Of a stretch of 64,000 nucleotides of DNA, positions 53,658 to 62,798 are shown piece by piece. A program made the position numbers and the translations under genes. This stretch comes from Ilumatobacteraceae bacterium. Its GTDB lineage: Bacteria > Actinomycetota > Acidimicrobiia > Acidimicrobiales > Ilumatobacteraceae. The stretch's first letter is position 1. Each line of letters opens with the position of its first letter. Location of the stretch: contig JAKMEY010000039.1 in assembly GCA_022425725.1 (NCBI GenBank), positions 1 to 64,000 on the forward strand, given 5' to 3'. The notes beneath the pieces are model-generated. The model saw nothing but the letters and a program-made list of their open reading frames with translations. It had not been told where the DNA came from and ran no database searches.

Positions 53658-53726
53658 GAAGAAAGTCTCGCATGATTGTCATCGGCTTCAGCAATGGAAG
53701 CCTCCAGAAACCGAGTAGTGTCTGGG

Positions 53727-53804: not shown

Positions 53805-54959
53805 ATGATCAAGTCAAAGCGCATCGCGGTTGCTGCAATGGCAGCCGTGCTTGCTCTCGCCGGTGCTGCTTGCGGAAGTGACGATCCCGTCGCTGACGAG
53901 CCAGCCGCCGAAGAGCCAGCCGCCGAAGAGCCAGCCGCCGAAGAGCCAGCCGCCGAAGAGCCAGCCGAAGAGCCCGCCGAAGAGCCCGCCGCTGAAGAAG
54001 AAGCAACCGAAGAGCCCGCCGAAGAGGCTGGACCATTCCTCGGACTCGCATTCGACACCGGTGGCCGCGGTGACGGCACGTTTAACGACATGGCAGGGCA
54101 AGGAGCAGACAGCGCGGAAGCCAACCTCGGTATTGCCGTTCAGGAACTCGAAGCAACCAGTGACCAAGACCGCCAACCAAACCTCGAGGCACTTGCAGGA
54201 GCGGGCAACAAGCTCGTCGTAGCAGTCGGCTTCGCCTTCGGTGACGCTCTCGCCCCAATCGCTGAAGCCAACCCAGATATGTTCTTCGGCTGGATCGACG
54301 GCTATTACGACGGACCGAACATCATCACCACGGCATTCTCCGAGCAAGAAGGTTCATTCCTCGTCGGTGCAGCCGCCGCGTTGAAGAGTCAGTCGGGCAA
54401 GATCGGCTTCATCGGAGGTCAGGAAATCGATCTCATTAAGAGGTTCGAGGCCGGCTATATCGCAGGTGCGAAGGCCGTCAACCCGGATATCGTGGTCGAA
54501 TCGGCTTACCTCGGCGCCGCAGGCGACAACGCTGCATGGGGCTCACCAGACAAGGCCAAGGAAATTGCTGGAGCATGGTACGCGGACGGCGCAGACGTCG
54601 TGTACACCGCTGCTGGCGGATCAGGTCGCGGAATGATTGAGGCTGCCGTTGAAGCCGGAGACGGCAAGTGGGCAATCGGCGTCGATAACGATGAATGCAG
54701 CTTCGATACCGAAGAGCAGAAGGCTCATCGCTTGACCTCAATGCTGAAGCGAGTTGATACGGCCGTTGAAGAAATGGCGAAGAGTGTTCAGGATGGAACC
54801 GCCGCAGGCGGCTTCTACACCTTCAACCTGGCAAACGATGGTGTCGGCTACGCGACAACTTGCGGCAACGTCGACGACATTGTCGACCAGCTTGAAGATT
54901 ACAAGGCTCAGATCATCGCCGGAGACATTGAGGTTCCAACCTCACCTGAAGGTCTCTAA
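53805..54959 (+). CDS. BMP-family nucleoside-binding lipoprotein
   Basis: Substrate-binding lipoprotein of a nucleoside ABC transporter (PnrA/Bmp/YufN type), 384 residues. The lipobox ends at Cys23 (ALAGAACG). A Glu/Ala/Pro linker of about 45 residues follows. The BMP domain begins FLGLAFDTGGRGDGTFNDMAGQGA and continues to GVGYATTCGNVDDIV. ATG at 53805 with AGGGGGAG just upstream; longer frames upstream are not used. It heads the operon but is separated from the ATPase by 171 bases holding several hairpins. Confidence 0.92.
   Translation: MIKSKRIAVAAMAAVLALAGAACGSDDPVADEPAAEEPAAEEPAAEEPAAEEPAEEPAEEPAAEEEATEEPAEEAGPFLGLAFDTGGRGDGTFNDMAGQGADSAEANLGIAVQELEATSDQDRQPNLEALAGAGNKLVVAVGFAFGDALAPIAEANPDMFFGWIDGYYDGPNIITTAFSEQEGSFLVGAAAALKSQSGKIGFIGGQEIDLIKRFEAGYIAGAKAVNPDIVVESAYLGAAGDNAAWGSPDKAKEIAGAWYADGADVVYTAAGGSGRGMIEAAVEAGDGKWAIGVDNDECSFDTEEQKAHRLTSMLKRVDTAVEEMAKSVQDGTAAGGFYTFNLANDGVGYATTCGNVDDIVDQLEDYKAQIIAGDIEVPTSPEGL
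53898..53957 (+). repeat. four perfect 15-bp tandem repeats in the lipoprotein linker
   Basis: Unit GAGCCAGCCGCCGAA four times in a row (53898-53957), followed by two 12-base variants ending near 53981. It codes for a Glu-Pro-Ala-Ala-Glu repeat between the lipobox and the BMP domain. The copy number may vary by slippage, which would change linker length without a frameshift. Confidence 0.85.
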
Positions 54960-55130: not shown

Positions 55131-56654
55131 ATGAGCAGCACGCCTGCTGTTGAACTCCGCGGAATCGGAAAACGATTTCCCGGGGTGATTGCGAATTACA
55201 ACGTTGATCTCAACGTTCGAGCCGGAACTATTCACGCCATCGTCGGTGAAAATGGAGCCGGTAAATCGACCCTGATGAAGACGCTCTACGGAATGCAAGA
55301 GCCCGACTCTGGAACGATTTCTGTTGAAGGAGCCGAGCGCCGTTTCAAGTCACCGAGTGATGCAATCAACGCTGGCATCGGCATGGTGCACCAGCACTTC
55401 ATGCTTGCCGACAACCTCACCGTTCTTGAGAACATCATTCTCGGAAGCGAACCAGGTCGCCGAGGCATTATCGATAGTAAACAGGCCCGCACACGGATTG
55501 AAGAAATAATGTCGGCCATCAGTACCGACCTTGATCTCGACGTTCCAGTCAGCGAACTCGGCGTCGGCGAGCGCCAACGCGTTGAGATTGTCAAAGTGCT
55601 GTTTCGGGGTGCCCGAATTCTCATCCTTGATGAACCGACCGCAGTTCTTGTTCCGGAAGAGGTCGACGAATTGTTCGTCACGCTCAGCAGTCTCGTCAAC
55701 GACGGGGCAACCGTGATCTTTATTTCTCACAAACTTGATGAGGTCCTGCAGGTCTCGAATGACATCACCGTCATGCGTCAGGGCACCACCGTTGCGGAAA
55801 CCACGCCCGGAAGCATCGATCGATCGGGGCTCGCAGAACTGATGGTCGGGTCAGAACTCCCCTCGCCGGAGGGAAGAACCTCTGACATCAAAGACGATGT
55901 TCGTCTCAACGTCGAAAACCTGACCGTCATGGGCTTCGAAGGGCGCCCCGCAGTTGACGGCGCATCGATCACCATTCGATCAGGCGAAATTGTTGGGATC
56001 GCTGGGGTCGAGGGAAATGGACAGTACGAACTGTGCGCAGCGCTCCTTGGTCTTGTGCCGTCAACCGGCACGGTTACTGTCGACGGCGCCGACCTCACGA
56101 AAGCAACCACTCGGCAACGACATGATGCTGGCCTTGCCTACATCCCGTTTGACCGTCACCGAGAGGGGCTCATGCTGAACGCTCCGCTTTGGGAAAACAC
56201 ATTGCTTGGGCGAGAAGACGAAGATCAATTTGGAAAAGGACCGCTCGTCGACGCGGCATCGATCCGGGCGTACACCGTTGACATCATCAAGCGCTTTGGA
56301 GTGCTTACTCCAAACGAGACGACACCGGCGTTTGCGCTCTCGGGGGGCAACCAACAAAAACTCATCGTTGGTCGCACACTTACGACGAACCCCGGGGTTC
56401 TCGTCGCCGCTCACCCGACTCGCGGCATTGACGTCGGTGCACAAGCGGCGGTGTGGGACGAAATTCGGCGAGCCCGTGACAATGGAATGGCTGTTCTTCT
56501 CGTCTCTGCCGATCTTGAAGAGCTGTTGGGGCTTTCCGACTCAATTGCAGTGATGTTTGACGGAAGTATCACCGCAACGCTGAACCCCGATGACGTCACC
56601 GCAAGCGAGTTGGGGAGCTACATGACAGGCGCGCACGAAGAGGTCGCATCATGA
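55131..56654 (+). CDS. nucleoside ABC transporter ATP-binding protein (double cassette)
   Basis: 507 residues with two fused ABC cassettes, as in YufO/RbsA-type importers. First cassette: GENGAGKST, LGVGERQRVEIVKVL, LILDEPTAVL. Second: GVEGNGQYE in place of a full Walker A, and LSGGNQQKLIVGRTL. The second site is degenerate, as is usual for this family. ATG at 55131 with GGGAGGG upstream. The stop overlaps the first permease (ATGA). Confidence 0.94.
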   Translation: MSSTPAVELRGIGKRFPGVIANYNVDLNVRAGTIHAIVGENGAGKSTLMKTLYGMQEPDSGTISVEGAERRFKSPSDAINAGIGMVHQHFMLADNLTVLENIILGSEPGRRGIIDSKQARTRIEEIMSAISTDLDLDVPVSELGVGERQRVEIVKVLFRGARILILDEPTAVLVPEEVDELFVTLSSLVNDGATVIFISHKLDEVLQVSNDITVMRQGTTVAETTPGSIDRSGLAELMVGSELPSPEGRTSDIKDDVRLNVENLTVMGFEGRPAVDGASITIRSGEIVGIAGVEGNGQYELCAALLGLVPSTGTVTVDGADLTKATTRQRHDAGLAYIPFDRHREGLMLNAPLWENTLLGREDEDQFGKGPLVDAASIRAYTVDIIKRFGVLTPNETTPAFALSGGNQQKLIVGRTLTTNPGVLVAAHPTRGIDVGAQAAVWDEIRRARDNGMAVLLVSADLEELLGLSDSIAVMFDGSITATLNPDDVTASELGSYMTGAHEEVAS

Positions 56655-57796
56655 GCGAGACAGCAACAGCCCCGTCACGCCCATCAGGCCCGTTAGCCAA
56701 GATCTTGACCCCTTCTCGGGCATCAGGATTACGCACCTCTGGAACGACGCTCGCAAGTTCGCTCATTGCCGTCATCATCGCTCTTGGGATTTCAGCGGTC
56801 ATGCTGTTCATCACCGGGAAAGACCCGGTGACAGCGCTTACCACCATCATCGACACCGCCCAAAACACCGACAAGTTGTTAGAGATGATGCGACGAGCAA
56901 CACCACTCATCTTCTCTGCAACCGCTGTGGCTATCGGCTTCAAAATGAACATCTTCAATATCGGAGTCGAAGGTCAATATCTCTTCGCTGCGCTGATGGC
57001 AGCCGAGGCAGGAAGCCATCTGAGTCTTCCGGGGCCACTTCACGTGACCGCAATTCTTGTGGTTGCTTTGATCTCCGGTGCTGCGTGGGCTGGCATCTCC
57101 GCATTCCTCAAAGTCCGCAAAAACATCCACGAAGTCATTTCGACGATCATGTTGAACTACATAGCGCTCTCATTTATTCAATGGCTTTTCAACAGCTTCT
57201 TCCGCGATGACTCTGTGGAAGGACTCAATATCAAGACAACGATCATCGAAGAATCTGGACGGCTACCCGACCTCGTTGAGGGACGGCTCAACTCGATGTT
57301 TATTATCGCTCTCATCGTCGTGGCCATTTTCTGGGTGGTGGTGTACCGGAGCACATTCGGTTTCAAACTTCGTGCCTCGGGCTACAACGCGACCGCCGCC
57401 TCAACCGCGGGAATCAGCGCAACGAAGATGACCGTTATCGCATTACTGCTCTCAGGTGCCGTCGCCGGCCTTGTTGCGATGCAAAGCGTTCTCGGTGAAA
57501 CCCATGCCTACGGCCCGAGTGCTACCCCAATCCAACTCGGGTTTGCAGGAATCACCGTTGCGCTTCTCGGCAGAAATCATCCGGTCGGCATCGTGATCGC
57601 AGCTTTGCTCTTTGGCTTCCTCGACTCAACATCTGCTCAACTTCAGCTTGCGGACGTGCCGAACTCAATCGTCAAGGTGATGCAGGCCATCATTGTGCTC
57701 ACCGTCGTGATCGTGAACGAAGCCGCAGTCCGCAGAACGAACATCAAGACCGCTGAACGAGCGCGAGCCGAACTCGCAGCAGGGAGTGGAGCATGA
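56651..57796 (+). CDS. nucleoside ABC transporter permease, first (YufP-like)
   Basis: 381 residues with about nine hydrophobic segments and the family blocks RRATPLIFSATAVAIGFKMNIFNIGVEGQY and NIHEVISTIMLNYIALSF, which mark the BMP-transporter permeases. The N-terminus is polar (to about 35). ATG at 56651 overlaps the ATPase stop and its end overlaps the second permease (ATGA). Confidence 0.92.
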   Translation: MSETATAPSRPSGPLAKILTPSRASGLRTSGTTLASSLIAVIIALGISAVMLFITGKDPVTALTTIIDTAQNTDKLLEMMRRATPLIFSATAVAIGFKMNIFNIGVEGQYLFAALMAAEAGSHLSLPGPLHVTAILVVALISGAAWAGISAFLKVRKNIHEVISTIMLNYIALSFIQWLFNSFFRDDSVEGLNIKTTIIEESGRLPDLVEGRLNSMFIIALIVVAIFWVVVYRSTFGFKLRASGYNATAASTAGISATKMTVIALLLSGAVAGLVAMQSVLGETHAYGPSATPIQLGFAGITVALLGRNHPVGIVIAALLFGFLDSTSAQLQLADVPNSIVKVMQAIIVLTVVIVNEAAVRRTNIKTAERARAELAAGSGA

Positions 57797-59070
57797 GCAC
57801 CACATCAATCTCTACCTCACCTACCAACATCGCTCTCTCACCGCGGATACGTCTCCTCTCCATCGGGTTATCCCTCGTCGCGGTGATGTCGGTGACCCGA
57901 CTATGGACTGGGTTCGACAACCTCACCTCGTCGGGAACCATCGGAGCCGCACTTCGACTCACCGTGCCGATCATGCTTGCCGGACTCGCAGGACTCTGGG
58001 CTGAGCGTGTGGGAATTCTCAATATTGGTATCGAAGGAATGATGATCCTCGGCACGTGGTTTGGCGCATTTGGTGCCTGGAAATACGGACCATGGATTGG
58101 ATTTCTCTTTGCGATCTTTGGCGGTGCGCTCGGCGGTCTCATCCACGCTGTCGCCACAATTCGGTTCAACATCGACCAAGTGATCTCAGGTGTCGTCATG
58201 AACTTGCTTGCGTTCTTCGGCGTCCGGTACCTCAGCGAATTGGTCTTTGTCGGACAACCTCAAGGCGGTATCAGCCAGTCACCTCCACAATCTTCAGCGA
58301 TACCAAAAGTCGATGTTCCATTCCTCGCAGGTGGACCTGTTGGTTCATCGTCGACACCTGACGCTCTTGGATGGCTTGAAGAACGAGGATGGTTCCTTAT
58401 CGCCGACCTTTCGGGCATGACGCGTGGACTTATGTCGGGATTGTCGCTCGCCTCACTCATCGCACTGCTCCTCATCCCCCTTTCTGCATGGGTCTTGTGG
58501 CGCACCAGTTTTGGGTTGCGACTGCGGTCATCGGGAGAGGCACCTGAGGCTGCAGAGTCACTCGGTGTGAACGTCATTCGGGTTCGCTACATCGGACTCC
58601 TCATCAGCGGTGGATTTGCCGGACTTGGTGGAGGGTTCCTCTCGATCATCTCCTCGTCGTATTACCGGCAAGGCCAGACCGCCGGCCGAGGATTCATTGG
58701 ACTTGCAACGATGATCTTCGGTAACTGGCGACCCAGCGGGATTCTCGGTGGAGCTGCCGTATTTGGCTACTCAGAGAGCATCAAGCTTGTCGCTGGTGGA
58801 TCAATCACCGGGCTGTTCCTCTTCATCTTCTTTGTGAGCGCAATCGTCGGTCTCATCTCGCTGTTGCGACGACAAATGCGGCGAGGAACAACCGGCATCG
58901 GAGTATCGGTGATCGCGCTTATCGCGTATCTGACCGTCGACGAAGTTCCCGAGTCGCTGACTCAGTCTCTGCCCTACGTGATCACGCTTATCGTGCTTGC
59001 CACCGCCAGTCAACGTTTGCGACCGCCGGCGAAAGCGGGTGTGCCCTATCGACCCGGCGGGGCTCACTAA
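57793..59070 (+). CDS. nucleoside ABC transporter permease, second (YufQ-like)
   Basis: 425 residues, about nine hydrophobic segments. The paralogous motifs VPIMLAGLAGLWAERVGILNIGIEGMM and NIDQVISGVVMNLLAFFGVRYL match the first permease. A loop of about 60 residues near 150-210 (QPQGGISQSPPQSSAIPKVD) would face outside. ATG at 57793 overlaps the previous stop; its stop TAA shares a base with the ATG of the first adenosine deaminase. Confidence 0.92.
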   Translation: MSTTSISTSPTNIALSPRIRLLSIGLSLVAVMSVTRLWTGFDNLTSSGTIGAALRLTVPIMLAGLAGLWAERVGILNIGIEGMMILGTWFGAFGAWKYGPWIGFLFAIFGGALGGLIHAVATIRFNIDQVISGVVMNLLAFFGVRYLSELVFVGQPQGGISQSPPQSSAIPKVDVPFLAGGPVGSSSTPDALGWLEERGWFLIADLSGMTRGLMSGLSLASLIALLLIPLSAWVLWRTSFGLRLRSSGEAPEAAESLGVNVIRVRYIGLLISGGFAGLGGGFLSIISSSYYRQGQTAGRGFIGLATMIFGNWRPSGILGGAAVFGYSESIKLVAGGSITGLFLFIFFVSAIVGLISLLRRQMRRGTTGIGVSVIALIAYLTVDEVPESLTQSLPYVITLIVLATASQRLRPPAKAGVPYRPGGAH

Positions 59071-60155
59071 TGGCAGTTGACGTCACGTCAGACGCCATTG
59101 TCTCCGCGCCAAAAGCACTGCTCCACGACCATCTCGATGGCGGCCTACGAATCGAAACCATCCTTGATTTGTCCGAGGTCATTGGTTGGACACCTCAACT
59201 GCCGACAACCGACCCCGCCGATCTTCAAGCGTGGTTTACTGCCGGAGCTGCTGCGAAAGACCTCCTGAAGTATCTCGCAACATTTGAACACACGTTGGCG
59301 GTCATGCAAGACCCTTCGCATATTGAACGAGTGGCATTCGAAGCCGTCGAAGACCTCGCCAACGACGGGGTCGTCTACGCCGAAATTCGTTTCGCTCCGG
59401 AATTGCACGACATGCCATTTGAAGCTTCGGCCGAGGCGATCTGCGCCGGCTTTCGACGAGCAGAAACCTCAGCCCACGAGAAGGGCCTCTCGATCTCGGC
59501 AAACCTCATCGTCTGTGCAATGCGTACCGAACGTCGATCTGTCGAGGTGGTCGAATTCGTTGACCGTTACCGCTCTACAGAGAGCAAAGTTGTTGCCTTC
59601 GACCTTGCCGGTGCCGAAACCGGTTGGCCTCCGTCGCTACACGCAGACGCTCTCGCCATCGCCCGCCAACGTCATATCAATGTGACGATTCATGCAAGTG
59701 AGCCACCTGACCTCGAGTTGATTTCTGACGCACTTGCCCACGGTGCTCACCGGATCGGACACGGAGTTCGACTCGATAGAGACACCCAACTCGACAACGA
59801 TGAACTCGTCTTGGGCCCCCTCGCGTCGTTTATCCGTGACCGGCAAATACACCTCGAAATGGCACCAACATGTAACACCCAAATTGGTGCCGTTAACTCT
59901 GTGGCTGAACATCCAGTCATTCCATTCATGCGCGCTGGCTTTAACGTCGGCGTGAACACCGACAACCGTTTGATGAGCGATGTGAGCCCGTCGAGTGAGC
60001 TCGTTGCACTGCATGACGCCCACCAACTGTCGTGGTCAGACATCGAGCGACTCGTGACAAACGCGATTTCATCTGGGTTTGCCCCACTCACCGAGCGTCA
60101 ACACATCATTGACGACATTGTCGCTCCGGCATATTTGTCACTTGCCAACCGCTGA
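59070..60155 (+). CDS. adenosine deaminase-family protein, diverged copy
   Basis: 361 residues. HDHLDGG (His19, His21) binds zinc; HRIGHGVRL and VNTDNRLMS supply later ligands. The usual HAGE catalytic segment reads HASE (His208 to Glu211), so Glu is kept but Gly is replaced, and the sequence after it (PPDLELISDAL) differs from canonical adenosine deaminases. It may prefer a modified nucleoside. ATG overlaps the permease stop by one base. It is 38 bases before the PHYHD1-like gene. Confidence 0.87.
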   Translation: MAVDVTSDAIVSAPKALLHDHLDGGLRIETILDLSEVIGWTPQLPTTDPADLQAWFTAGAAAKDLLKYLATFEHTLAVMQDPSHIERVAFEAVEDLANDGVVYAEIRFAPELHDMPFEASAEAICAGFRRAETSAHEKGLSISANLIVCAMRTERRSVEVVEFVDRYRSTESKVVAFDLAGAETGWPPSLHADALAIARQRHINVTIHASEPPDLELISDALAHGAHRIGHGVRLDRDTQLDNDELVLGPLASFIRDRQIHLEMAPTCNTQIGAVNSVAEHPVIPFMRAGFNVGVNTDNRLMSDVSPSSELVALHDAHQLSWSDIERLVTNAISSGFAPLTERQHIIDDIVAPAYLSLANR

Positions 60156-60193: not shown

Positions 60194-61069
60194 ATGTCCG
60201 CTTTGCTCACCGATGAACAAATTGCATCGTTTGAACGCGATGGCTTCCTTGCTGTGCCCGACTTCATGGGTTCGCAGACCCGAATGTCGATCCGTGAGCG
60301 GGCAATTGACCTCGTCGACAGCTGGGAGCCATCTGGCGAAAACACCGTGTTCACCACCGAAGAGCAAGAACGAGTCTCCAACCATGAGTTCTTGTCGTCA
60401 GGTGGTCGTATTTGGTGTTTCTTCGAAGAAGAAGCATTCGATGAACGCGGCGAGCTACGGCAGGCAAAAGAACTCAGTATCAACAAGATCGGTCATGCAC
60501 AGCACGATCTCGATGATGTGTTTGAGCGCGCCACCTATACCTCAGATCTTGCCCAGATCGCAGCCGATATCGGAATGACTGACGCTCTGGCATTACAGAG
60601 CATGTACATCTTTAAGCAGCCGGGCATTGGTGGTGAAGTGAGTTGCCACCAAGACGGCACTTTCCTTTACACCGACCCGCTGACGGTCACCGGATTCTGG
60701 TTCGCGGTCGAAGATTCCACCATTGACAACGGTTGCCTCTGGGCCGCCCCTGGCGGCCACAAGCCTCCGCTACGGAAAGTCTTCCGCCGCGTCGGATCTG
60801 ACGATGAGGGCACCGTCTTTGAAGATCTCGATGAGACACCGCTTCCAGATCCGGCAAAAGACCTTGTACCGCTGGAGGTCCCCGCAGGAACAATGGTGAT
60901 TCTCAATGGGAAACTCCCCCATTGGAGTGACGTCAACAGGTCACCGGTGAGCCGTCACGCGTACACCTTGCATTGCATCTCTGCTTCAGCGACATATCCA
61001 GATTGGAACTGGCTGCAACGACCGGCAGATATGCCATTGCGCCGACTCGATCGCAGTGATCGTCGATGA
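60194..61069 (+). CDS. PHYHD1-like Fe(II)/2-oxoglutarate dioxygenase
   Basis: 291 residues of the phytanoyl-CoA dioxygenase (PhyH) superfamily. The iron triad is His152, Asp154 (CHQDGTFLYTDPL) and His243 (KLPHWSD), and Arg254 should bind 2-oxoglutarate. From memory, long stretches match human PHYHD1: INKIGHA, LQSMYIFKQPGIGGEVS, AVEDSTIDNGCLW, RHAYTLH. It is not a typical phytanoyl-CoA hydroxylase. ATG at 60194. The stop overlaps the second adenosine deaminase (ATGA), so it is made together with nucleoside salvage enzymes. A role on modified nucleosides is my inference. Confidence 0.87.
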   Translation: MSALLTDEQIASFERDGFLAVPDFMGSQTRMSIRERAIDLVDSWEPSGENTVFTTEEQERVSNHEFLSSGGRIWCFFEEEAFDERGELRQAKELSINKIGHAQHDLDDVFERATYTSDLAQIAADIGMTDALALQSMYIFKQPGIGGEVSCHQDGTFLYTDPLTVTGFWFAVEDSTIDNGCLWAAPGGHKPPLRKVFRRVGSDDEGTVFEDLDETPLPDPAKDLVPLEVPAGTMVILNGKLPHWSDVNRSPVSRHAYTLHCISASATYPDWNWLQRPADMPLRRLDRSDRR

Positions 61070-62154
61070 CCTCTCTTTCACTTGACATTGCGGTTCGCGC
61101 ACCGAAGGTGCTGCTGCATGACCACCTCGACGGTGGACTCCGCACCGAAACCGTCATCGAACTTGCTGAAGAGTTTGGCTACGAGGGATTACCAACCCAC
61201 GACCCCTCTGATCTTGCAACGTGGTTCAACCGTGGTGCAAAGCGGAACGACCTAGTGCTGTATCTGGAGACCTTTGCGCACACCGTTGGCGTTATGCAAC
61301 ACCGTGACGCTCTCGAGCGCGTCGCATATGAGTGCGGTATCGACCTCGCGGACGACGGCGTTGTCTATGCCGAGGTTCGCTACGCCCCAGAGTTGAACGT
61401 AGAGGCAGGGCTTTCACTCGATGAGGTCGTTGCTGCGACGATCGATGGTTTCCAACGAGCAGAGCAAGAGACCGGCATCGTCATCAAGGTCATCCTCTGC
61501 GCAATGAGAACCGCGGCTCACAGCCTCGATATTGCCCACCTCGCAGTGAAATGGCGTGACGCTGGGGTCGTCGGCTTCGACATTGCCGGCGCCGAGGCAG
61601 GCCACCCACCATCACGCCACCTTGACGCATTCCAGTATGTGATGCGCGAAAACTTTCACTCGACAATTCACGCCGGTGAAGCGTTTGGGCTGCCAAGCAT
61701 TTGGGAAGCACTTCAATATTGCGGTGCTGCTCGCCTTGGCCATGGCGTTCGCATCGTCGATGACATTACGAAGACTGATGACGGCTGGGAACTTGGCCGC
61801 CTTGCCGAGTTCGTTCGTGACCGCCGAATTCCCCTTGAACTTTGTCCCACGTCAAATGTAAACACGGGTGTCTGCGCCGACATCGCCTCGCACCCAATTG
61901 GCCTCTTGCGAGATCTGCGCTTCAGAGTGACGGTGAACACCGACAATCGTCTCATGTCGAACACCTCGATGAGTCACGAATTTGTCCAACTTTCAGAGGC
62001 CTTCGGAACCGATCTTGCCGATATGCAGTGGCTCACGATTAACGCAATGAAGAGCGCGTTCGCCGGCTTCCCTGAGCGGCTGCACATCATCAACAACGTC
62101 ATCAAGCCGGGCTACGCGAATCTCCTCGCTGAGCAGGCTGGCGGATCGACATGA
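61066..62154 (+). CDS. add: adenosine deaminase, canonical actinobacterial type
   Basis: Deaminates adenosine and deoxyadenosine to (deoxy)inosine. 362 residues with HDHLDGG (His18, His20), HAGEAFGLPSIWEAL (His202 to Glu205, the catalytic Glu), RLGHGVRI and VNTDNRLMSNTSMSHE; the NTDN form is normal in actinobacterial enzymes as I recall them. ATG overlaps the PHYHD1-like stop, and its own end overlaps upp (ATGA). The neighbouring copy at 59070 is a paralog. Confidence 0.93.
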   Translation: MTSLSLDIAVRAPKVLLHDHLDGGLRTETVIELAEEFGYEGLPTHDPSDLATWFNRGAKRNDLVLYLETFAHTVGVMQHRDALERVAYECGIDLADDGVVYAEVRYAPELNVEAGLSLDEVVAATIDGFQRAEQETGIVIKVILCAMRTAAHSLDIAHLAVKWRDAGVVGFDIAGAEAGHPPSRHLDAFQYVMRENFHSTIHAGEAFGLPSIWEALQYCGAARLGHGVRIVDDITKTDDGWELGRLAEFVRDRRIPLELCPTSNVNTGVCADIASHPIGLLRDLRFRVTVNTDNRLMSNTSMSHEFVQLSEAFGTDLADMQWLTINAMKSAFAGFPERLHIINNVIKPGYANLLAEQAGGST

Positions 62155-62798
62155 CCGTCACCGTCACCGAGGTTGACCACCCGATCGTCAATGATGCACT
62201 TGCTCGTATGCGTTCGGTTGAGACGTCGAACGCAAACTTCAGAGCTCACCTCGACCGACTTGGCATCATCTTGCTTGCAGAGGCCACAAAAGACCTGCCG
62301 ACACGTTCGCAGAAGATCACTACCCCACTCACCGAAACCCAACAGCAGGTCCTCGCTCAGATACCGCTGGTCGTTCCAATTCTTCGTGCTGGGCTCGGAT
62401 TCGTCACGTCGGTACACCATGTGCTCGATGACGCAGACCTCGGGTTTGTCGGGGTGACGAGAAACGAAACAACCTTCGAGCCAGAGCTCTATACCGACAA
62501 ACTGCCCGCAGACATCGGCGATCGACCAGTGATCATCGTCGACCCGATGCTTGCGACTGGTGGCTCACTGAATCACGTCATCGATCTCATCGCCAATCGC
62601 CAAGTGACGGGCACGATCACTGTCGTTTGCGCAATCGCTGCCCCGGAAGGTATCGAGGCGGTGCGAGCCCACGTCAACGACCGCTGGAACGTTCACATCG
62701 TGACAGGCGCCATCGATTCGCACCTCAACGAGCAGGCGTACATCGTTCCGGGGCTTGGTGATGCAGGCGATCGCCTGTTCGGCGAACCTCGCAACTAG
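62151..62798 (+). CDS. upp: uracil phosphoribosyltransferase
   Basis: Makes UMP from uracil and PRPP. 215 residues. The PRPP-binding motif is VIIVDPMLATGGSL, and PILRAGLGF plus ALARMRSVETSNANFR are family-specific. ATG overlaps the add stop. It could use uracil released by PsuG at the left edge. It ends exactly where the convergent phosphomutase gene ends. Confidence 0.95.
   Translation: MTVTVTEVDHPIVNDALARMRSVETSNANFRAHLDRLGIILLAEATKDLPTRSQKITTPLTETQQQVLAQIPLVVPILRAGLGFVTSVHHVLDDADLGFVGVTRNETTFEPELYTDKLPADIGDRPVIIVDPMLATGGSLNHVIDLIANRQVTGTITVVCAIAAPEGIEAVRAHVNDRWNVHIVTGAIDSHLNEQAYIVPGLGDAGDRLFGEPRN

Follow-up and report, generated by a model that had tools for sequence, protein, structure and literature searches.

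PHYHD1-type oxygenases in putative nucleoside uptake and salvage gene runs of Acidimicrobiia: a proposed 2'-O-methyl nucleoside demethylase

The gene run

The window, by which we mean the whole analysed stretch of 64,000 nucleotides from an Ilumatobacteraceae bacterium, carries a run of eight forward-strand genes which code, in order, for a Bmp substrate-binding protein, an ATPase, two permeases, an adenosine deaminase paralogue (ADA1), a PHYHD1-type oxygenase, a second adenosine deaminase (ADA2) and a uracil phosphoribosyltransferase (upp) (Table 1). Five of its seven joints are overlaps of 1 to 4 bases, and a phosphomutase gene lies convergent with the run. The oxygenase frame extends from an ATG to a TGA (291 amino acids) and runs 4 bases into ADA2 (61066-61069); the first antisense frame across the same interval contains several stops. 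The first-pass annotation had described transporter genes upstream, a deaminase preceding the oxygenase and an oxygenase stop overlapping a canonical adenosine deaminase gene, all of which is borne out, with ADA2 scoring above its model cut-off. The terminal upp gene was absent from that description.

Table 1. Genes of the run, with positions in the window and the evidence for their assignment
Feature	Position	Strand	Evidence
Bmp (PnrA-like) substrate-binding lipoprotein of ABC transporter	53805..54959	+	Pfam Bmp 7.6e-63
ABC transporter ATPase, two ATPase domains	55131..56654	+	Pfam ABC_tran 4.1e-46, 2 stretches
ABC transporter permease 1	56651..57796	+	Pfam BPD_transp_2 2.3e-40; 4-base overlap with both neighbours
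ABC transporter permease 2	57793..59070	+	Pfam BPD_transp_2 8.5e-29
Adenosine deaminase paralogue (ADA1)	59070..60155	+	Pfam A_deaminase 6.2e-76
PHYHD1-type Fe(II)/2-oxoglutarate oxygenase, proposed 2'-O-methyl nucleoside demethylase	60194..61069	+	phmmer, Pfam, tree, model
Adenosine deaminase (ADA2)	61066..62154	+	NCBIfam NF006847 552.7 bits, cut-off 412
Uracil phosphoribosyltransferase (upp), last in run	62151..62798	+	NCBIfam PRK00129 242.4 bits, cut-off 114

The first four genes present the order of Bmp/PnrA-type uptake systems, namely a Bmp binding protein, a double ATPase and two BPD_transp_2 permeases. The best NCBIfam models for these proteins are those of "putative B6" transporters, all of which score below their cut-offs (447.4 against 670 for the ATPase and 101.7 against 400 for the binding protein), and we therefore infer the nucleoside substrate of the transporter from the neighbouring genes. 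The likelier start of the Bmp protein is the ATG at 53805, which precedes a lipoprotein-like signal, over the listed TTG at 53676. This signal is followed by a repetitive acidic linker (PAEEPAEE...), which gives rise to long, spurious-looking frames in other readings of both strands between 53780 and 54347. Scans for promoters and terminators returned one promoter-like site against 3.3 expected and eight terminator-like sites against 7.8 expected, and a tRNA scan of the window returned none.

Further genes of this genome specify a phosphorylase of the DeoD/Udp type (219.5 bits, below the DeoD subfamily model's cut-off of 230), two PF01156 nucleoside hydrolases and a pair of cytidine/dCMP deaminase family proteins. 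The presence of the phosphorylase and the hydrolases implies that demethylated nucleosides can be split, with the uracil being usable by the uracil phosphoribosyltransferase.

Affinities of the oxygenase

A phmmer search of PDB sequences with the window oxygenase recovered human PHYHD1 (2opw/3obz) as the top match (E 1.3e-60, 208 bits, residues 3-284, 41% identity), followed by EvdO2 (40.5 bits) and the phytanoyl-CoA dioxygenase 2a1x (28.7 bits); its Pfam domain is PhyH (3.5e-39). A profile built from 46 bacterial rows gave 305 bits with human PHYHD1 as against 62 with the tested part of phytanoyl-CoA hydroxylase (PAHX). In a tree of 39 rows, comprising 26 of the 46 rows of alignment A2, human PHYHD1 as the single representative of animals and 12 others, a branch with support 100/99 separates the 26 bacterial rows together with human PHYHD1 from the rest, and PAHX, represented by a partial row, falls outside this clade. 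Two other PhyH rows (L144 and L149), which score -0.2 bits against the PHYHD1 profile, were left out of the tree. We use only this split from the tree, as the branching around the human row within the clade is uncertain and the long PAHX branch joins another long branch. To the question raised by the first-pass annotation, of whether the protein might be closer to phytanoyl-CoA hydroxylases, the tree gives a negative answer. The closest named relative, at 98% identity, is from a metagenome-assembled Acidimicrobiaceae bacterium (L056), and further close relatives are labelled as Ilumatobacter, Ilumatobacteraceae or Acidimicrobiia.

The AlphaFold model of the protein (pLDDT 91.9) superimposes on 2opw with a Z-score of 37.0 and an rmsd of 1.9 over 272 residues (Z 36.9 for 3obz), as against Z 24.2 for the next other protein and 22.6 for the phytanoyl-CoA hydroxylase 2a1x. 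The stretch that matches the extra helix of human PHYHD1 near the cavity mouth (residues 56-71) is present, albeit 4 residues shorter; in the model its pLDDT is 54 in the block 51-60 and below 50 at 56-59, and just a short helix is formed at 64-67.

The first-pass annotation had pointed to a PHYHD1-like protein with shared iron ligands, and the HxD...H triad (H152, D154 and H243) indeed aligns with that of PHYHD1. The human protein matches at every one of the 18 conserved columns examined, an agreement that is descriptive because the columns were picked by the analyst from conserved positions. Published docking of 2'-O-methyl nucleosides into human PHYHD1 places K102, H105, Q139 and W277 in contact with the ribose, with F161 stacked against the base and S154 bonded to purines (PMC12709175). 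These residues align with K98, H101, Q135, W273, F157 and S150, respectively, of the window oxygenase, whereas phytanoyl-CoA hydroxylase has D, H and Y in place of H101, Q135 and F157. The 46-row alignment, which includes the window oxygenase, shows no change at K98, H101, Q135 and W273, with F157 almost invariant as well; S150 belongs to neither group and varies among the relatives.

Recurrence of the nucleoside context

A sample of 296 genomes of the window's class, taken as Acidimicrobiia from the labels of close relatives, contains 27 with a PHYHD1 match at 1e-20. Of the 27 PHYHD1-type genes, 23 have a PF00962 gene within 10 kb, as against 3 of the 123 remaining PhyH genes listed from the same genomes (Fisher p 5.7e-20, with related genomes treated as independent), and 18 have a Bmp gene within that distance, as against 2 of the 123, this control being the listed part of 160 other PhyH places by per-genome counts (187 less 27). 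The 23 deaminase-linked genes span 15 of the 18 genera having PHYHD1. Chance placement of the oxygenase beside a deaminase was rejected on the difference between 23/27 and 3/123.

When window-protein searches and Pfam are combined, a Bmp or other ABC transporter, an adenosine or cytidine deaminase or a phosphorylase is found near 26 of the 27 genes, the other one (G217) being on a 4.3-kb contig. Among the genes with no PF00962 neighbor within 10 kb, that of G110 is adjoined by genes for a Bmp transporter, a cytidine deaminase and a pyrimidine phosphorylase, and that of G248 by transporter genes with the contig end nearby. G039 is without a PF00962 match at 1e-20, and there the end of a cytidine deaminase frame overlaps the PHYHD1 frame (L048, 7726-10367, + strand). 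Among the further neighbors are genes for cytidine deaminase and thymidine/pyrimidine phosphorylase, as well as one resembling uridine phosphorylase; Pfam scans of chosen neighbors covered 40 proteins across these and the non-actinobacterial loci. The PHYHD1 gene of G039 is also preceded by an amidohydrolase with matches to 5'-deoxyadenosine and methylthioadenosine deaminase models below their cut-offs. At another locus (L052, 199-4996, + strand) PHYHD1 and adenosine deaminase stand beside a different ABC type (BPD_transp_1) and an aconitase X-like protein, and the same order of ABC, PHYHD1 and ADA is seen in L054 (1020-3705, + strand). Two PhyH genes that are not of the PHYHD1 type have adenosine deaminase-family genes nearby as well; they belong to G273 and G043 (L136, 8127-9662, - strand; L137, 8424-10081, + strand); in the L136 protein H, Q, F and W align with the PHYHD1 pocket, with ML instead of NK.

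A second, partly overlapping set consists of named loci, which represent the best 80 of 567 relatives, are hence biased to near relatives, and were sorted into actinobacterial and other by record label. Window-protein searches of these best 80 detected ADA, Bmp or permease genes at 51/51 actinobacterial loci (ADA at 48, Bmp at 33, permease at 48 and upp at 42) as against 1/29 others, with 9 of the 51 and 9 of the 29 loci being shorter than 10 kb and 20 of the 29 reaching or exceeding it. Judged by stop spacing, ADA2 directly follows PHYHD1 at 42 of the 47 loci among these 80 with a same-strand ADA2. The sole locus outside Actinomycetota in this set with deaminase and Bmp matches (L132, 4998-7269) is labelled as a beta-proteobacterium, where they lie about 4 kb from PHYHD1. 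Pfam scans of 20 neighbors from 12 non-actinobacterial loci (SAR324, another uncultured proteobacterium, Acidobacteriota, Oxalobacteraceae and Niveispirillum) found no nucleoside family. The linkage is thus lineage-restricted: the recurrent nucleoside context on which the first-pass annotation depends holds within the window's class and among the actinobacterial loci, and fails at the others.

A search of the whole phylum at 1e-20 found PHYHD1 matches in 12 of 396 genomes, of which only one, a partial match in G301 (E 1.6e-22, 37% over residues 101-271), lies outside the window's class. Viral contigs gave 19 pattern matches, none of them a relative. Eight sampled genomes of the window's family lack PHYHD1; an ADA2 relative turns up at 1e-30 in four of them, and in three of these four the Bmp transporter and deaminase genes occur within a single 20-kb stretch. 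The persistence of the run in such genomes indicates that it is of a general kind, with PHYHD1 as an optional member.

Functional and evolutionary implications

Human PHYHD1 had no known physiological substrate before December 2025, according to the Introduction of the paper by Stonkus et al., which reports demethylation of free 2'-O-methyl nucleosides by this enzyme and by relatives of animal, fungal, plant, bacterial and viral origin (PMC12709175). The removal of the methyl group depends on 2-oxoglutarate, and release of formaldehyde was shown for FJS, an enzyme obtained by a metagenomic screen for growth on 2'-O-methylcytidine (PMC12709175). Among the compounds tested, human PHYHD1 and FJS are described as acting on free 2'-O-methyl nucleosides and weakly on 2'-O-allyl nucleosides; mono- and triphosphates and 3'-O-methyluridine are listed as non-substrates of the two, and methylated RNA as not demethylated (PMC12709175). 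In the same account human phytanoyl-CoA dioxygenase has no activity on 2'-O-methyl nucleosides, FJS gives only trace product from phytanoyl-CoA, and zebrafish without the PHYHD1 gene show raised free 2'-O-methyl nucleosides (PMC12709175).

The window oxygenase resembles human PHYHD1 isoform A in identity over nearly its full length, the compared columns, fold and clade, and differs from it in the shortened helix segment and in being encoded beside nucleoside genes. FJS is likewise a bacterial PhyH-family oxygenase that catalyzes the reaction proposed here for the window oxygenase; the helices at its cavity mouth are described as different ones, of C-terminal position (PMC12709175). Unlike the bacterial demethylases, which are described as having a tyrosine at the position of F161 (PMC12709175), the window oxygenase retains phenylalanine, and by this feature it looks nearer to animal PHYHD1 than to those enzymes.

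The reaction of the relatives and the matching pocket make demethylation of 2'-O-methyl nucleosides the best reading for the window oxygenase. We consider it highly probable that imported 2'-O-methyl nucleosides are demethylated with release of formaldehyde and then deaminated and salvaged. In this scheme the Bmp ABC transporter would import nucleosides, including ribose-methylated ones from RNA decay; PHYHD1 would give back the free 2'-OH, allowing them to enter the usual routes; the overlapping deaminase ADA2 would then deaminate adenosine; bases would be set free by a phosphorylase or hydrolase acting on nucleosides, whose gene lies outside the run; and uracil would be recovered by the run's own uracil phosphoribosyltransferase. 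The present analysis establishes the gene and its family, the identity of its active site, its predicted fold, and the run with its recurrence, and the reaction has been shown by others for relatives; we infer that the window oxygenase demethylates, that the transporter carries methylated nucleosides and that the steps follow this order. The suggestion of the first-pass annotation that PHYHD1-type enzymes hydroxylate or demethylate nucleosides is accordingly supported by the activity published for relatives (PMC12709175); within its proposed substrate panel the 2'-O-methyl compounds are favored, and N6-methyl and 5-methyl groups are left in place by the published reaction.

The same chemistry could alternatively serve detoxification rather than feeding, by clearing 2'-O-methyl nucleosides whose phosphorylation would disturb polymerases or salvage enzymes. 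Harm of this kind is discussed as a hypothesis in PMC12709175, and the location of most PHYHD1-type genes outside Actinomycetota apart from nucleoside genes would suit such a role; however, in the window's class PHYHD1 is joined to an importer and deaminases, that is, to uptake and use, and we regard a protective role as unlikely. Less probable still is oxidation at some other nucleoside position, such as an N-methyl or 5-methyl group or the 2'-carbon of deoxynucleosides. Any nucleoside oxygenase would fit the gene context, and the Introduction of PMC12709175 mentions a nucleoside 2'-hydroxylase from a fungus, but PHYHD1 and FJS act on 2'-O-methyl and leave N6-, N4- and 5-methyl groups untouched (Table 1 of PMC12709175), and the window oxygenase has the PHYHD1 pocket residues. 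The reading of the protein as an ordinary hydroxylase of phytanoyl-CoA or lipids, placed in the run by accident, which the name of the PhyH domain might suggest, is ruled out for practical purposes by score, pocket, tree and fold, which all side with PHYHD1, and by the recurrence of the deaminase adjacency across genera.

The enzymatic reaction is largely anticipated by the December 2025 paper (PMC12709175), and the genomic context of bacterial PHYHD1 appears to be new. A word search of the main text of that paper returned no occurrence of "neighbo", "actino" or "adenosine deaminase", and single occurrences of "operon", "gene cluster" and "transporter" in other senses; a literature search found no paper on the gene context of bacterial PHYHD1. 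The conserved bacterial runs offer independent support for a role of PHYHD1 in the turnover of free methylated nucleosides, as well as a possible native pathway of import, demethylation, deamination and salvage that is amenable to genetic tests. The runs further suggest that Acidimicrobiia draw on ribose-methylated nucleosides released by RNA decay. A distinct bacterial route for 2'-O-methyl nucleosides, with a probable gene cluster, has been described in the form of the 2'-O-methyluridine hydrolase RK9NH with an aldolase; in contrast to the proposed demethylase, RK9NH is not an oxygenase but a nucleoside hydrolase that splits the base from the sugar (PMC6278475).

The two deaminases

ADA1 and ADA2 share 47% identity. 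Against NCBIfam adenosine deaminase models ADA1 scores just above one cut-off (413.7 against 412) and below another (207.5 against 216.55). The loop at the metal-binding histidine reads HASEPPD in ADA1 and HAGEAFG in ADA2; with the window proteins counted in both sets, the serine of HASE is found in 19/19 distinct ADA1-type sequences and the glycine of HAGE in 62/62 distinct ADA2-type sequences. ADA1 and its relatives of the same type retain the metal ligands, with two of the 19 distinct sequences, which are cut short or gapped, being devoid of the N-terminal pair. The serine may point to a possible shift in substrate. In a tentative and rather doubtful extension of this idea, the run would scavenge modified nucleosides produced by RNA decay, and ADA1, alongside the demethylase, would be specialized for a modified adenosine, e.g. 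2'-O-methyladenosine. ADA1 is also present in a PHYHD1-less genome (L160), which indicates that ADA1 and PHYHD1 are not strictly tied to each other.
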